Shown here piece after piece: positions 4,211 to 33,986 of a DNA stretch of 37,939 bases. The notes under the pieces were generated by a model. It was not told the origin of the DNA. It saw only the letters and a program-made list of their open reading frames with translations, and searched no databases. The position numbers and the translations under genes were made by a program. Position 1 is the first letter of the stretch. Every line of letters begins with the position of its first letter. Source of the stretch: Microcoleus sp. FACHB-DQ6. Its GTDB lineage: Bacteria > Cyanobacteriota > Cyanobacteriia > Cyanobacteriales > Microcoleaceae. Location: the NCBI GenBank assembly GCA_014695175.1, contig JACJNV010000101.1:1-37939 (forward strand), written 5' to 3'.

Positions 4211-4316
4211 GTAAGCGCTGCGCCGAAGCGCCGAGCTGTTTAGATGTTCTCCGTAGTTTCTACAGTAAGCTGCACCGAAGGGCCCCTAATTGTAGATTCT
4301 CTACGTAATTTCTACA
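4211..4316. repeat. Degenerate tandem repeat, two units of about 54 bp
   Basis: Unit 1 (about 4211-4264) and unit 2 (about 4265-4316) share GTAAGC, GCnCCGAAG, TAGATnnTCT and GTAnTTTCTACAGT in the same order. It lies 0.25 kb upstream of the RTX gene start. Its role is unknown; it may be a dispersed cyanobacterial repeat. Confidence 0.5.
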
Positions 4317-5086
4317 GTGAAATAGCTGATTTTACCTCGCAACTTACAACTCCCAAATAACTACCCAAAACCTGTATCCCCAAAATTTTACCCTTGCTTT
4401 TGTTGCGAGCTCGGCTGAGTGCATTGAATTTTTATAACACTCCCAGCTTTGACAAATCCTTCCCTGACTTAGGATTTGAATCTCTTGACTAAACGACGGC
4501 ACGCTTCTAATTTTAGTTCCCGATGAGTAATTAGAAATTTAGATAATTCGCCCGGGTAAATATTTGTTCTAATTTTTGGTTGCACAATTTTCTCTCGATT
4601 CGAGGAAACCTCGCGAACTGAGAAAAAATTTTTTTTTCGGATCAATACTAATAGTTAGGTTAAAATATCTCTATCTCAAGACAGATTGCCAAATTTGTCA
4701 AAAAGTAGTATATGGCAGAAGTCGTTTTTGGTGCAAGTTGCAAGCTCGATCGGCATTTTGAGCGGGAATGACCACGGCGAGGCTGCGAAACCCTATTGTT
4801 TTGTAGAGGCTTCGCTACCAAATCAAATAATTCTCCGAGAAACCGGCCTGATGAGGCGTAATCCTCTAGATGCCAAAAATGATGGTTGCTTGAGAGTACC
4901 GGAATAATTTGATTGCCATTGTATTGTTGAGAGTTCTTGGCTGCTTACGTTTATTTTTGCTGCTTAACTTTAACTAGATTAAGAGAGTTAAATAAAAAGT
5001 TTTCTATATCATGAAAGGGGTAAATTAGCAATAAGTTATTAGCAATTATCGACGGTCAAGTATCGATTACCGATCGCCACTGAGGT

Positions 5087-5128
5087 CTTAAGGATGAGGG
5101 CGGAGGGCTTACGGATGAGAACCCAGGG
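5087..5128. repeat. 21-bp direct repeat, two abutting copies
   Basis: Copies at 5087-5107 and 5108-5128 match at 16 of 21 positions, with shared CTTA, GGATGAG and AGGG. No function is apparent. Confidence 0.45.
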
Positions 5129-5400
5129 CTGACCAATTAATTAATTGACACAAAATCTAGATTACACGTGGGGGGTTGGTGGTAGAGGATAAGCGGTAAA
5201 GACCGCTCGACCGATAGCCAAAAAAAATAAAATACTCAACTTTGCCTGCGATATTGCCCTGAAACCGGTTGGCGTGAGCCGAAGTAATTTTAATAAGAAC
5301 TAGAGATCCGCCTGGTAAAGTGCCTCCAATTTAACTTTACTCAGCAATGAGAAACTCAAGTTCACGACGAATCTAAAGGGGTCTGCGGTAGAGGTGCAAA

Positions 5401-5655
5401 ATGTTAAAGATAGGAAGATTGGAGAAAATTCGGCTTTCACCGAGCCACAGGGCAATCAAAACTAATAAACTGTTATTAAAGTACAACTTTTATATTCTCA
5501 AAGTGTTTGAACAAATATATATGACCCTAGCGATCGCCCGATCGGGGGAAGCGCATTCAGAAACTTTGATAGAAAGAGTAAAAAATATGTTGCCGAGTGC
5601 TATTGCTAGCCACAAAAACGCAGGCAAATTCAGAATTAAGGCGGGAGGGCGCTAA
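5401..5655 (+). CDS. Possible small hypothetical protein upstream of the CHAT gene
   Basis: An 84-residue frame opens with ATG after a reasonable ribosome site (AGAGG about 7 nt upstream) and stops 4 nt before the GTG start proposed for the CHAT gene, so it could be a leader gene of the same transcript. The product is basic, has no recognisable domain, membrane segment or signal peptide, and its composition is not clearly gene-like. It may be a chance frame. Confidence 0.22.
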   Translation: MLKIGRLEKIRLSPSHRAIKTNKLLLKYNFYILKVFEQIYMTLAIARSGEAHSETLIERVKNMLPSAIASHKNAGKFRIKAGGR

Positions 5656-5659
5656 ATCC

Positions 5660-7360
5660 GTGAGCCAGGAATTTCAACTCTCAGTCACCCCTGTTGGGGA
5701 CGACGAATATCTAGTGCGGACAGAAAGGGTTGCACCCGGTGTACCCTTAGCCGAACAACAAGTCCGCTGGCCGATCGACGAATGGCTTGCACTGTCTGCT
5801 CAACTGATGAACGACCCGCTGGTGGGCTTGCTCCAGGGAAAAGTAGTACAGGGAAGCAATTTGGCTGGTCGCGGCCTCTCCCGTTCGGGAAACAACTCAG
5901 CGCCCAATTTAGTAGCCCTGGGGCAACAATTATACAGCGGGCTGTTTCAAGGAAACTTGCGCGATAGCTGGACTTGCGCTCAAGGCATCGCCCAGCACCG
6001 CCGAGAAGTGCTGCAACTGCGACTCGGACTCAAAGGCCGGCGCTTGCCGCGGCTGCCGTGGGAAGTTCTGCACGCCGGCGATCGCCCTTTGGCAACCGGC
6101 ACCGATGTCGTGTTTTCTCGCTACCAACCAGGTACAAGTTTGTTCAAACAAACCCGGATAGTGCCTAGTAGCGGGCCACTAAAAATTTTAATGGCGATCG
6201 CCTCTCCGAGCGATCGAGACAGCTTGCAGCTCAAGCGAGAAGTGCTCCACCTGCAACAAGAACTCCAAAACCGCAGCGCTAATCCTCTCAAAAACAGCCC
6301 CCATTCCCCGGAAATTCAACTGACTATTCTCGAACAGCCCGATCGAGAACAACTTACCCAAGCCCTAGAACAAGGACACTACCAAGTCCTGCACTACGCA
6401 GGCCACAGCAACTTAGGTTCCAGAGGTGGCGAACTCTACCTAGTCAGCAGCCGCACCGGCTTAACCGAAACCTTGAGTGGCGACGACTTAGCTGGATTGC
6501 TTGTTAACAACGGTATTCAGATGGCCGTGTTCAACTCCTGCCGCGGCGCCTACGGCGATCCCTCAGACCTCGCGGACGACAGCCCGGAACGGAACTTAAC
6601 CGAAGCTCTAGTGAAGCGGGGCATTCCGGCAGTGCTAGCAATGGCAGAAAGCATCCCCGACGATGTAGCCCTAACTCTGACGCGGTTGTTTTACCGCAAC
6701 CTCAATCAAGGCTATCCAGTCGATCTGAGCCTGAGCCGGGCCAGAGCTGGGCTAATTTCTGCCTACGGTTCTCACCAGCTATACTGGGCTTTGCCCATTC
6801 TCTACCAGCACCCGGACTTTGACGGCTATCTGATCGGTGGCCCCGCCCACAGCGCGACATCGGGGTCTCGGGTGCAAATAATCGCGTCGGGAACGCCCCC
6901 GGCTCTGGCGGGTACAGAATGGAGTGCGCCACCTTCACTCTCGGCGATCGCCCAATACCCCCCAATCCCAGCCAATCGATCGCATGAGTCAGACAGTTCT
7001 GACGGCGAAGTCTGGGAATATTTTCCCGACCAATTAAAAGATCGCAGGGATTGGGTTCACCAGAACGATCGATTCGATGCCACTAATTCACCGAACTCAC
7101 CGACGGCTTCGCCGTCCTCTATTCCTAATTCTGAGTCTTCGGCGATCCAAGCAACTCGCGCCGCTGCACCGACTCAGAAACCGTTAAAAAAACCGGGGTT
7201 GAAAACATCTGTCGCCCTAATGCTTTGCTTGTTGCCCGTTGCTTTGAGTGCTGGCTTTTTTGGGTGGCGCTACTCGCACCAGCGAGACACGAAACCTGAA
7301 GAGTTACTACCGGCGGTACGGACTCCCCTGTCGCAAAATTACCTGCAACAACGCCACTAA
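5660..7360 (+). CDS. CHAT-domain (caspase-like) protein with C-terminal membrane segment; C-terminus probably frameshifted
   Basis: The 566-residue product belongs to the CHAT family of clan CD cysteine-peptidase-like proteins. The catalytic pair is visible: His249 in HYAGHSN and Cys294 in FNSCRGA. The CHAT domain spans about residues 130-400, preceded by LPRLPWEVLH. A Ser/Pro-rich linker follows, then one hydrophobic segment (about 518-537), suggesting membrane anchoring. GTG at 5660 is chosen because GGGAGGG lies upstream and the N-terminus MSQEFQLSV looks natural; an in-frame ATG at 5597 would add 21 unconvincing residues. The frame stops 23 residues after the membrane segment, but the +1 frame continues at 7327 with PVAKLPATTPLKAIA, which resembles the continuation I recall for related proteins. 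A frameshift at CCCC (7325-7328) is therefore likely. The substrate is unknown. Confidence 0.85.
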   Translation: MSQEFQLSVTPVGDDEYLVRTERVAPGVPLAEQQVRWPIDEWLALSAQLMNDPLVGLLQGKVVQGSNLAGRGLSRSGNNSAPNLVALGQQLYSGLFQGNLRDSWTCAQGIAQHRREVLQLRLGLKGRRLPRLPWEVLHAGDRPLATGTDVVFSRYQPGTSLFKQTRIVPSSGPLKILMAIASPSDRDSLQLKREVLHLQQELQNRSANPLKNSPHSPEIQLTILEQPDREQLTQALEQGHYQVLHYAGHSNLGSRGGELYLVSSRTGLTETLSGDDLAGLLVNNGIQMAVFNSCRGAYGDPSDLADDSPERNLTEALVKRGIPAVLAMAESIPDDVALTLTRLFYRNLNQGYPVDLSLSRARAGLISAYGSHQLYWALPILYQHPDFDGYLIGGPAHSATSGSRVQIIASGTPPALAGTEWSAPPSLSAIAQYPPIPANRSHESDSSDGEVWEYFPDQLKDRRDWVHQNDRFDATNSPNSPTASPSSIPNSESSAIQATRAAAPTQKPLKKPGLKTSVALMLCLLPVALSAGFFGWRYSHQRDTKPEELLPAVRTPLSQNYLQQRH

Positions 7361-8291: not shown

Positions 8292-8437
8292 ATTTCCTTC
8301 AATTTTTACCGGATTGCCTTCCCCAGACTGCGTTCTGTGCAAGTTATATGCCCAACACCTTAATAGAAGATTGCTCGTTGGTATTTGGGGTTTTGAGGGG
8401 ATTTCCCGCCCGAAAAATAGGGTTTATACTATTTTGG

Positions 8438-8462
8438 ATTTTAGATTTTAGATTTTAGATTG
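8438..8462. repeat. STRR heptamer array (GATTTTA)n
   Basis: Three to four head-to-tail copies of the 7-mer GATTTTA. The same heptamer family recurs near 7670, 13222, 14068 and 15900. Confidence 0.65.
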
Positions 8463-13317: not shown

Positions 13318-13362
13318 AAGTCAACAGTCAACAGTCAACAGTCAACAGTCAACAGTGAACAA
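13318..13362. repeat. STRR heptamer array (AGTCAAC)n overlapping the ureF start
   Basis: About five copies of AGTCAAC end in the variant AGTGAACAATCAAC, in which the T-to-... change TCA to TGA context creates the GTG used as the ureF start (13355). The same heptamer lies before the SDR gene at 17301. Confidence 0.8.
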
Positions 13363-14068
13363 TCAACTTTTATGTTTGTTACAGCTAGCTTTTGCACCTG
13401 TGGGAGCTTATAGTTATTCTGAGGGAATCGAAAGTCTGGTAGAAACCGGTGCGATCGACAGCGAGATTACTTTGAGAAATTGGTTAGAAAATTCGCTGCA
13501 ATTCGGGGCTGTTCGAGTAGAAGCCGCAGTGGTGGTAAGGGCTTTGAGGGCGGCAAAGATAGGGGATTTGACAGCTTTGAATTACTGGAATGCTTGGGCG
13601 ACTGCTACTAAGGAAACAGAAGAGTTGCGCTTGCAAAGTTGGCAAATGGGGCGGACTTTGGTCAGGTTGCTGCTGGATTTGCGTGAAGCGAAGCTATCCC
13701 GCAGGGAATCGCCCGTTGCTTCTGGCTTAACCACAATTGTAAAAGAATTTGTGGAATCTGCCAGCAATCAGTGCAATTTTGCGATCGGCTTTGGCATTGC
13801 CGCCGCAAGTTGGCAGATTGAAGAGGAAGCGGCCGTGTTAGGATATTTGTACAGTTGGGCTGCCAATTTGGCGAGTGCGGGCGTGAAACTGATTCCCGTC
13901 GGTCAAACAGCCGGTCAACAGTTACTGTTAGATTTGCAGTCTCAAATTAGCTGTACTGCCCAAGAAGTTTTAAAATTAGAAGATGATGATATTGCTAGTT
14001 GCAGTTGGGGGTTAGCCCTAGCTAGTATGGCGCACGAAACTCAGTACACTCGGTTATTTCGGAGTTAA
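13355..14068 (+). CDS. ureF: Urease accessory protein UreF
   Basis: The 237-residue product is UreF, which acts with UreD and UreG in GTP-dependent nickel insertion into urease. Family signs are [27 protein letters not shown], an [15 protein letters not shown] helix, [52 protein letters not shown] and the C-terminal [13 protein letters not shown]. The start is GTG at 13355; codons 1-3 lie in a heptamer repeat and there is no SD. Bases 13681-13714 match a dispersed repeat and encode [14 protein letters not shown] after LLDL, probably an in-frame insertion in a loop. Confidence 0.92.
13681..13714 (+). repeat. Dispersed repeat inserted in frame in ureF
   Basis: GCGAAGCTATCCC (13688-13700) followed by GCAGGGAATCGC is the inverted form of motifs at 11469-11526. 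It encodes about 11 residues of UreF. The surrounding sequence is normal for the family. Confidence 0.6.
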
Positions 14069-14109
14069 AAATCAGAAAATCTAAAATCTAAAACCTAAAA
14101 TCTAAAATC
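14068..14109. repeat. STRR heptamer array between ureF and ureG
   Basis: Five to six head-to-tail copies of AAAATCT, the complement type of the GATTTTA arrays, fill the whole 44-nt spacer. No SD remains before the ureG ATG at 14113. Confidence 0.75.
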
Positions 14110-16984: not shown

Positions 16985-17030
16985 ATGGGCATGGGGCATG
17001 GGGCATGGGGCATGGGGCATGGGGCATGGG
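16985..17030. repeat. STRR heptamer array (ATGGGGC)n
   Basis: About six head-to-tail copies of ATGGGGC, starting 14 nt after the NTF2-like gene stop. Confidence 0.85.
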
Positions 17031-17235: not shown

Positions 17236-17300
17236 TAGCGATAAAGGCTAGAGAAAATAACAACTAACAAATAAAAAAACTAACAAATAACCAATGACGA

Positions 17301-17347
17301 CAGTCAACAGTCAACAGTCAACAAACAGTCAACAGCCAACAGTCAAC
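17301..17347. repeat. STRR heptamer array (AGTCAAC)n upstream of the SDR gene
   Basis: Copies of AGTCAAC, some degenerate (AACAAAC, AGCCAAC), end about 17 nt before the SDR start. Same heptamer as before ureF. Confidence 0.75.
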
Positions 17348-32647: not shown

Positions 32648-32823
32648 TAGACACTCTATCGCCCTACTCAATCCCGGATCAGACTCGGCTTGGTCAATCC
32701 ATCCGAAATACGATCGCCCTACAACTCTGTAATTCAGATTTTGCCTATCCTCAAGCGATCGCCCTGTTGAAAAATTCGATGCGACTGTCCGGATTGCGAG
32801 CGAATTCTCAGAAAGCTTAATTG

Positions 32824-32877
32824 GTAGATGCACCCTGATTAATTAACTCCCGACCAATTTTGGCCGGGTTTTTTTTT
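32824..32877 (+). ncRNA. Array unit 1: candidate small RNA with terminator
   Basis: GTAG-ATG core, then CCCGACCAA/TTGGCCGGG hairpin and nine T (32869-32877). Preceded by TTAATT at the expected -10 position. Type B upstream spacer. Confidence 0.5.
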
Positions 32878-32961
32878 GTCGATCGCACCCTTAGCCACAC
32901 ATTCTCCTAAATTCTGCCAAAGTGTCCTGAAAGAGGTGCTGTGAGGCCGGAGACTAAATTG

Positions 32962-33014
32962 GTAGATGCACCCTGATTAATTAACTCCCGACCAATTTTG
33001 GCCGGGTTTTTTTT
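32962..33014 (+). ncRNA. Array unit 2: candidate small RNA with terminator
   Basis: Hairpin identical to unit 1; eight T (33007-33014), followed by a HIP1 octamer. Preceded by TAAATT. Type A spacer. Confidence 0.5.
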
Positions 33015-33099
33015 GGCGATCGCCCGCCCTCGCCAGAAATTCTCCTAAATTCTCCCAAAGTGTCCTGAAAGAGGTGCTGTGAGACAGGAGACTAAATTA

Positions 33100-33155
33100 G
33101 TAGATGCACCCTGATTAAATAACTCCCGACCAATTTTGGTCTGGGGTTTTTTTTT
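33100..33155 (+). ncRNA. Array unit 3: candidate small RNA with terminator
   Basis: Stem CCCGACC pairs with GGTC(T)GGG: A-T replaces the A-C mismatch of unit 1, with a bulged T. Nine T (33147-33155). The core has ATTAAATAA instead of ATTAATTAA. Confidence 0.5.
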
Positions 33156-33228
33156 GCGGTATCGACGGTGATGCTGAAAAAGTTTGAGGTTGTCCGGATA
33201 GCGCTCGAATTCTCAGGAAGCTTAATTG

Positions 33229-33285
33229 GTAGATGCACCCTGATTAATTAACTCCCCGCCAATTTTGGTCTGGGGTTTTTTTTTT
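33229..33285 (+). ncRNA. Array unit 4: candidate small RNA with terminator
   Basis: Stem CCCCGCC/GGTCTGGGG with outer CCCC-GGGG; ten T (33276-33285). Type B spacer with TTAATT before the core. Confidence 0.5.
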
Positions 33286-33358
33286 CGGTATCGACGGTGA
33301 TGCTGAGTAAAGTTTGAGGTTGTCCGGATAGCGCTCGAATTCTCAGGAAGCTTAATTG

Positions 33359-33414
33359 GTAGATGCACCCTGATTAATTAACTCCCCGCCAATTTTGGTT
33401 TGGGGTTTTTTTTT
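33359..33414 (+). ncRNA. Array unit 5: candidate small RNA with terminator
   Basis: Stem CCCCGCC/GGTTTGGGG; nine T (33406-33414). Its upstream spacer is nearly identical to that of unit 4, indicating a recent duplication. Confidence 0.5.
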
Positions 33415-33498
33415 GCCGATCGCACCCCAAACCACAAATTTTCCCAAATTTTCCCAAACTGTCCGGAACAGGTGTACCTCGAACCGGAGACTCAATTA

Positions 33499-33553
33499 GT
33501 AGATGCACCCTGATTAATTAACTCCCGACCAATTTTGGCCGGGGTTTTTTTTT
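33499..33553 (+). ncRNA. Array unit 6: candidate small RNA with terminator
   Basis: Stem as unit 1 with an extra G (GGCCGGGG); nine T (33545-33553), then HIP1. Type A spacer with GTCCGGAACAGG variant. Confidence 0.5.
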
Positions 33554-33626
33554 GCGATCGCACCCCAAACCACAAATTTTCCCAAACTGTCCGGAACAGG
33601 TACGCCTCGAACCGGAGACTAAATTA

Positions 33627-33680
33627 GTAGATGCACCCTGATTAATTAACTCCCGACCAATTTAGGTGGGGTTTTTTTTT
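33627..33680 (+). ncRNA. Array unit 7: candidate small RNA with terminator
   Basis: Stem CCC(G)ACC/GGTGGGG with a bulged G; nine T (33672-33680), then HIP1. Confidence 0.5.
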
Positions 33681-33765
33681 GAGCGATCGCAGGCTAAGCC
33701 ACAAATTCTCGCAAATTCTGCCACACTGTCCTGAAAGAGGTGCTGTGAGGCGGGATATTAAATTA

Positions 33766-33821
33766 GTAGATGCACCCTGATTAATTAACTCCCGACCAAT
33801 TTAGGTTTGGGGTTTTTTTTT
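33766..33821 (+). ncRNA. Array unit 8: candidate small RNA with terminator
   Basis: Stem CCCGACC/GGTTTGGGG; nine T (33813-33821), then HIP1. Confidence 0.5.
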
Positions 33822-33906
33822 GAGCGATCGCAGGCTGATCCACAAATTATAGGAAATTCTGCCAAAATGTCCTGAAAGAGGTGCTGTGAGGGGGGAGATT
33901 AAATTA

Positions 33907-33959
33907 GTAGATGCACCCTGATTAATAAACCCCAGCCAATTAAGGCCGGGGTTTTTTTT
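33907..33959 (+). ncRNA. Array unit 9: candidate small RNA with terminator, last unit
   Basis: Stem CCCCAGCC/GGCCGGGG with a 6-nt AATTAA loop; eight T (33952-33959). On the minus strand the same stem is followed by TTTATT, so this unit may also terminate the DUF5818-like/protease transcript. Confidence 0.5.
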
Positions 33960-33986
33960 GCTCGAAAGCTGGATTAGTCGATCGAC

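Follow-up and report, generated by a model that had tools for sequence, protein, structure and literature searches.

How does a tandem series of nine similar short units, each with a predicted hairpin and a T-run, come to stand in the genome of a Microcoleus, and what could it encode there? The units lie on the + strand at 32822-33960 of the window, by which we mean the whole stretch of 37,939 nt analysed here, and are spaced 128-141 bp apart (Table 1).

The units of the array belong to the NsiR1 family by sequence

Tandem Repeats Finder independently placed the array at 32819-33960. An earlier sequence-only reading had described nine tandem units at this spacing, with a near-invariant core and all T-runs on one strand; our recount gave the same number and spacing, the core GTAGATGCACCCTG is present in nine of nine units, and all nine T-runs are on the + strand. 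That reading had seen no sequence relation to NsiR1, which is contradicted by a covariance model search: all nine units exceed the gathering threshold of the Rfam family RF02399, with full-model matches of 46.8-54.2 bits against a threshold of 39. The matches are 55-58 nt long with the T-run as their 3' end, and represent predicted transcripts. Judged by these scores, the nine units are NsiR1, a new member of the family in an unexpected host. The earlier proposal of nine copies of a short transcript finds good support in this homology, each unit probably giving an RNA of ~55 nt from its own promoter and ending at its own terminator. The window also holds tandem repeats of period 7, at 8431-8461, 13319-13367, 14076-14109, 16987-17030 and 17300-17347.

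Table 1. Features of the window discussed in the text. Unit starts are the family 5' ends from the RF02399 search; DIF1 offsets are given relative to them.
Feature	Positions	Strand	Remarks
hetF homologue, N-terminal part	5597..7360	+	~25 kb from array, same strand
DIF1 unit 1	32788..32793	+	TCCGGA, -34
NsiR1 unit 1	32822..32877	+	RF02399 50.4 bits; predicted sRNA, 3' terminator hairpin and T-run
DIF1 unit 2	32925..32930	+	TCCTGA, -35
NsiR1 unit 2	32960..33014	+	RF02399 48.5 bits; folding
DIF1 unit 3	33063..33068	+	TCCTGA, -35
NsiR1 unit 3	33098..33155	+	RF02399 54.0 bits; folding
DIF1 unit 4	33193..33198	+	TCCGGA, -34
NsiR1 unit 4	33227..33283	+	RF02399 53.5 bits; folding
DIF1 unit 5	33323..33328	+	TCCGGA, -34
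NsiR1 unit 5	33357..33413	+	RF02399 54.2 bits; folding
DIF1 unit 6	33462..33467	+	TCCGGA, -35
NsiR1 unit 6	33497..33553	+	RF02399 49.6 bits; folding
DIF1 unit 7	33590..33595	+	TCCGGA, -35
NsiR1 unit 7	33625..33680	+	RF02399 46.8 bits; folding
DIF1 unit 8	33729..33734	+	TCCTGA, -35
NsiR1 unit 8	33764..33820	+	RF02399 50.8 bits; folding
DIF1 unit 9	33870..33875	+	TCCTGA, -35
NsiR1 unit 9	33905..33960	+	RF02399 52.0 bits; folding

Folding predicted a hairpin in all nine units, with energies of -10.4 to -16.2 kcal/mol and z values of -0.3 to -2.7 against shuffles, so that the hairpins are individually only moderately stable. The sequence-only reading had the arms varying while keeping their pairing. 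The hairpins themselves stand in nine of nine units, and maintained pairing is clear across distant lineages, but inside the array the signal is weak: the arms are largely invariant among the units and in closely related arrays, and of the five consensus pairs a single one changes on both sides and fails to pair in 7 of 29 sequences.

A search with the neighbouring peptidase gene gave 31 loci, 26 of them with relatives at 81-98% identity and five with distant matches; the taxa of the 26 are Microcoleus, Tychonema, Kamptonema, Lyngbya, Oscillatoriales and related bins. Microcoleus and this group of relatives do not form heterocysts. One bin (L022) is labelled Richelia, yet has a 90% peptidase match, which is probably a labelling problem. 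At least one exact unit, with a maximum of 11, stands at the syntenic place by the peptidase gene in 21 of the 26 Microcoleus/Tychonema/Kamptonema-group loci. The five without a unit are L022, where only 528 bases follow the match, and L023, L026, L028 and L034, which offer 6 kb each; the latter four therefore indicate that loss or divergence of the array does occur.

Each unit lies behind a DIF1 motif

DIF1 is the motif of NsiR1 promoters in Anabaena, described in work that itself accepted one mismatch (PMC6133370). We found it at -34/-35 of the family 5' end in all nine units, as TCCGGA in five and TCCTGA in four. The sequence-only reading had instead proposed a TTAATT or TAAATT directly before each core as a -10-like element. 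Such a hexamer precedes the core in eight of the nine units (unit 6 has TCAATT), but it covers -5 to +1 relative to the family 5' end, and in an alignment of 22 genomes from other families it shows no conservation. What is conserved in the promoter is TCCGGA/TCCTGA at -34/-35, not the proposed -10.

The same arrangement holds beyond the window. Our promoter sample comprised 84 units in 31 genomes, namely the nine window units and 75 among the matches listed, in the regions examined. The exact core GTAGATGCACCCTG is present in 83 of the 84; homologous arrays with unrelated cores, a possibility that the sequence-only reading had raised against itself, were not seen. Allowing one mismatch, DIF1 occurs between -40 and -29 in 80 of the 84 units, compared with 4.6% in mononucleotide shuffles, and exact TCCGGA in 47, compared with 0.3%. 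The four units that lack DIF1 represent one gene, alike in sequence, in four Microcoleus genomes. Generic scans hardly detect the array: a sigma-70 scan gave three promoter-like sites where 2.6 were expected, and no unit start was among them; a terminator scan gave one terminator-like site, in unit 3 (2.5 expected). The hairpins contain mismatches, and the promoters are of another type.

With a 105-aa ORF on the + strand to one side and - strand genes to the other, the array puts nine terminators in series between genes, and might act mainly locally, as a battery of terminators or through DNA structure or recombination, rather than through RNAs acting in trans. We consider this very improbable, since the most conserved parts are the seed at the 5' end and the -35 motif, not the hairpin, and since solitary copies with the same seed stand at unrelated loci.

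NsiR1 occurs with hetR in and beyond heterocyst-forming lineages

The same 386 cyanobacterial genomes were searched for RF02399 and for hetR (PF03574). All 80 hetR-positive genomes have an NsiR1 match (E <= 1e-3), whereas any match was found in only 15 of the 306 hetR-negative genomes, 13 of these being weak (best E 2.6e-5 or worse); the Fisher p value of 6e-68 is given without correction for relatedness. Weak matches carry little meaning, as an E. coli search control also gave weak matches below the cut-off. Above the Rfam cut-off are 80 genomes, made up of two hetR-negative ones, G229 (11 matches) and G308 (one), and, by subtraction, 78 hetR-positive ones; the 13 weak hetR-negative genomes were taken as sub-cut-off from their E-values. 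The hetR-positive genomes with only sub-cut-off matches are G058 and, judged by its E-value of 1.5e-4, G083.

Eleven genomes with both hetR and NsiR1 come from orders other than that of the window. Heterocyst formers are described as monophyletic (PMC11298460). Since family f6 includes one or more of them, these 11 genomes should not be heterocyst formers. The distribution of NsiR1 follows HetR, not heterocysts. The window's own genome likewise carries hetR (PF03574), with a patX-like gene for an RGSGR protein ~1.5 kb upstream on the same strand, and a HetP-family gene. In two Microcoleus genomes (loci L111 and L075), TCCTGA, the one-mismatch DIF1 also used by array units, lies ~60 nt before the patX start.

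In Nostoc, NsiR1.1 is antisense in the hetF leader (PMC9045159, PMC8406250). The window has a hetF homologue (Table 1) that is 65% identical, over residues 2-404, to the gene adjoining an NsiR1 array at locus L074; it matches the model NF045509 (CellDiv_HetF) at E 8e-191, with 636 bits against a cut-off of 1200. Its ORF covers only the first 387 of 836 HetF model positions, and in six Microcoleus relatives the hetF match is likewise confined to the N-terminal half. Upstream of it, in 4300-5800, we found no NsiR1 copy down to E 10, and the NsiR1.1 arrangement of Nostoc has no counterpart in the window. Among 32 genomes searched for both genes, 30 have a hetF match at E <= 1e-60. Divergent NsiR1 and hetF, ~150-360 nt from the hetF start, were found in at least seven genomes among the matches listed: G008, G027, G033, G060 and G135, outside families f6 and f10, and G062 and G360 in f10. 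In a further genome (G099) the array is ~11 kb from hetF, on the same strand. These data suggest that the divergent geometry predates heterocysts and was lost in the window's lineage.

A history in which the array is a relic from a heterocyst-forming ancestor, now unregulated or decaying, would accord with a host genus without heterocysts, with the missing hetF-antisense copy and with a genome in which nifD is not found above the cut-off (one match, of 47 bits against 653.55). We nevertheless regard it as very unlikely. The promoter motif and the seed are intact in nine of nine units and in most relatives, and the same RNAs occur in hetR-positive lineages outside the order, which do not descend from heterocyst formers if those are monophyletic.

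A sibling class carries a HetR-operator-like palindrome

At two further loci of the window's genome (C186 and C62), and in like sequences of relatives, the common seed is combined with a GGGGTN3ACCCC palindrome, a TATANT-like box and a terminator of its own. Genes of this class have GGGGN5CCCC in place of DIF1 and share the 5' seed with NsiR1. HetR requires GGGnnnnnCCC, and its hetP site in Anabaena is GAGGGGTCTAACCCCTC (PMC4192349). The gatB-linked genes of the class scored 28.6-29.3 bits with RF02399 in all three loci scanned (L123, L125, L127) and the C62-type loci 24.6-25.2 bits in all four scanned, in each case below the cut-off; by these scores both are siblings of NsiR1 and not members of RF02399. 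Other operator-class copies pass the cut-off, namely those in G129, G320 and G002 and a serS-linked copy of the window's genome, at 48.3 bits. The latter (G000:C199:1956-2013, + strand; L070) has serS on one side and a gene for an iron-uptake porin on the other, and carries GGGTGACACCCC and TATACT in place of DIF1. Together with like copies in three other Microcoleus genomes it makes up the four units without DIF1 noted above, in which the box reads TATACT or TATAGT; within the operator of these copies, GTGACA resembles an ordinary -35 box.

A strict operator-plus-seed pattern (GGGTNNNACCC, 15-45 letters, TAGATGCACCCT) was found at 78 places in 45 of the 386 genomes, and its reversed control at none. 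hetR is present in 44 of the 45. The exception, G229, has 11 NsiR1 matches and five operator-class siblings with no hetR found, through either an assembly gap or a loss of hetR with the RNAs kept. By family, the strict pattern occurs in 14 of 42 hetR-positive f6 genomes compared with 30 of 38 other hetR-positive genomes. A looser pattern, in which the seed was reduced to GTA beside the operator and TATANT, gave seven places in 12 genomes, each at a sibling gene already located by the strict pattern. In some lineages the operator-class siblings are tandemly duplicated (L158:1190-1558 in G306, L157 in G320, L138 in G360).

The operator class includes an old locus, beside gatB. In 20 of the 38 operator-class loci examined, tblastn places gatB (TIGR00133) upstream in the same orientation, one locus per genome in 20 genomes of eight families; the other 18 include lineage-specific serS- and C62-type copies, and some are on stretches too short to judge. 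From the gatB stop to the operator there are 35-315 nt in the 13 loci measured. We aligned 19 sibling sequences, four of them not shown to adjoin gatB. All rows agree in GGGG, CCCC and the seed and differ in the palindrome centre and the spacer, though all were chosen by the seed, 10 of them by a pattern holding GGG and CCC and nine by the seed alone. The hairpin stem, which lies outside all patterns, pairs in 94% of cells and shows 12 two-sided changes; slid versions of the stem pair in 50-79%. Its covariation is 0.41 compared with 0.29 in shuffles that keep relatedness, 0 of 500 being as high. Compensatory changes maintain the pairing of the sibling hairpin. The mean folding z is -2.2 for the 19 siblings; for NsiR1, sampled as one unit per genome in 26 genomes, it is -2.6.

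We also surveyed the promoter types of the seed by itself, taking exact occurrences of TAGATGCACCCTG in 14 hetR-positive genomes (the 11 outside the order, G002, G008 and the window's own). There were 76 places, with none for the reversed control in each of the 14 genomes; removal of two array units with contexts identical to others left 74 distinct contexts. DIF1, with one mismatch allowed, accounts for 56 of these and the operator for 17, and one has neither; in shuffled upstream sequence, DIF1 appears at 7.7% and the operator at 0.24% of sites. One DIF1 assignment, in G027, is doubtful by position, and that context has no T-run under the rule used; the context with neither type, in G011, also lacks a T-run. 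A T-run follows the seed in 70 of the 74. With 73 of 74 contexts having DIF1 or the operator, nearly all uses of the seed therefore sit behind two promoter types. At least one operator copy is present in 13 of the 14 genomes, with one in ten of them, two each in G002 and G008, and three in the window's genome; the seed-only search found no operator-class copy in the hetR-positive G286.

The GGGGN5CCCC of the siblings could belong to another regulator or form part of a sigma-70 promoter, with HetR not bound at all. The GTGACA of the serS-linked copies, which resembles TTGACA and stands 15-16 nt from TATACT, points in this direction, and the link to HetR draws on a consensus from Anabaena (PMC4192349). 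We consider this alternative somewhat unlikely. Both arms, of G and of C, are retained around a centre whose five letters differ (GGG/CCC being preset in 10 of the 19 rows), GGGnnnnnCCC is the stated requirement of HetR (PMC4192349), and the class follows hetR in 44 of 45 genomes.

Candidate targets of the seed

In Nostoc, NsiR1 is reported to repress hetF and the hetP-like gene alr3234. We compared duplexes of the seed with gene leaders with those of 200 dinucleotide shuffles. The leaders of the hetP-like gene (157 shuffles as good), hetR (133), hetF (83), serS (46) and the porin gene (132) did no better than shuffles, and the patX leader was marginal, with 16 of 200 as good in the window's genome and 26 of 200 in G099. 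Neither these duplexes nor near-complements of the seed gave a convincing NsiR1 target in Microcoleus. For cobM, 0 of 200 shuffles were as good, but trivially so: a solitary NsiR1 copy is antisense to the region before this gene. The copy (G000:C296:923-979, - strand; L072:923-979) has an exact DIF1 TCCGGA at -34 and stands directly after lgt; cobM encodes a precorrin-4 methyltransferase. Near-identical counterparts are found in G099, G039 and G336 (L100, L112, L133).

Near-complements of the seed with up to two mismatches were sought in four genomes; among the matches listed, the exact place and several one-mismatch places examined are NsiR1 or sibling genes themselves. One two-mismatch place, in the G000:C393:21060 region (L213:700-950), is conserved across four Microcoleus genomes; the surrounding stretch lacks long ORFs and has repeated CCATCAGGG words.

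A proposed RNA arm of the HetR circuit

We put at roughly 85% the probability that the window contains a nine-copy NsiR1 array which, in a non-heterocystous host of the Microcoleus group, forms part of a HetR-linked RNA circuit together with the sibling class. Each unit would be a complete gene: a DIF1 promoter and an RNA of ~55 nt that exposes an invariant seed at its 5' end (GUAGAUGCACCCUGAU) and has its own intrinsic terminator. Following the Nostoc papers, the DIF1 promoters would be activated by HetZ, itself under HetR, and the array may in this way deliver a high dose of a trans-acting base-pairing RNA that depends on the HetR network. The operator-class sibling, often downstream of gatB, would be activated directly by HetR through GGGGN5CCCC. 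HetR would then switch on the operator sibling at once and the DIF1 array one step later, both presenting the same 5' seed. The slightly different units of the array may have partly different partners, by analogy with NsiR1.1 and NsiR1.4 of Nostoc.

It is tempting to regard both classes as the RNA arm of an ancestral HetR circuit older than heterocysts. We lean towards a broader reading, in which NsiR1 is no RNA of heterocysts as such but the amplified half of an ancient two-class HetR module. A direct operator gene, in most cases single and frequently placed after gatB, and HetZ/DIF1 copies that differ in number and at times form arrays would act on the same targets, in most filamentous cyanobacteria that bear HetR, whether or not they form heterocysts. 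The role of hetR and patX in cyanobacteria without heterocysts has been called a mystery in print (PMC11298460). A seed that stays invariant behind two HetR-linked types of promoter would be a concrete, measurable output of HetR in such organisms and a handle on its targets. If the proposal is true, NsiR1, hitherto titled heterocyst-specific, moves back to before the evolution of heterocysts.

Comparison with known systems

NsiR1 is known as a regulatory RNA of nitrogen-fixing heterocysts, with expression that depends on HetR and is specific to these cells. Nostoc/Anabaena PCC 7120 has 12 tandem copies of NsiR1 (RF02399) upstream of hetF (PMC9045159, PMC8406250). Like the window's units, they belong to the same covariance family, are ~60 nt long and tandem, have individual DIF1 promoters and diverge slightly from copy to copy. 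Unlike them, the window's array stands in a non-heterocystous host; hetF shares its strand at a distance of ~25 kb, and no copy antisense to hetF was found. An NsiR1-like RNA in a non-heterocystous species is already known from Limnospira: RNA162 of L. indica PCC 8005, 57 nt long, in a filamentous host with hetR, whose expression was measured under gamma radiation (PMC8400943). In its accessible text that account concerns one annotated RNA, and an array, a promoter class and a distribution are not mentioned there.

Small RNAs dependent on HetR are also known in PCC 7120, where NsiR8 and NsiR9 measure 171 nt and 122 nt (PMC4734099). The same report, which maps homologues of Nostoc small RNAs, NsiR1 possibly among them, over non-heterocystous genomes, includes the RNA 4547237r. 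At 51 nt it is similar in length to the sibling class, but it is reported as exclusive to heterocystous strains, unlike that class; compared by length and description only, the two may be the same. We found no description of an operator-driven sibling class or of the co-occurrence of hetR and NsiR1 in a literature search that lacked key NsiR1 and HetR papers, which leaves priority uncertain. With that reservation, what is new here is the operator-driven class with its common seed and gatB-linked locus. Its closest counterparts are the HetR sites of hetP and hetZ in Anabaena, which are GGGnnnnnCCC inverted repeats, that of hetP (GAGGGGTCTAACCCCTC) resembling the GGGGTN3ACCCC of the siblings (PMC4192349); unlike those sites, the predicted operator of the siblings precedes a small RNA gene.
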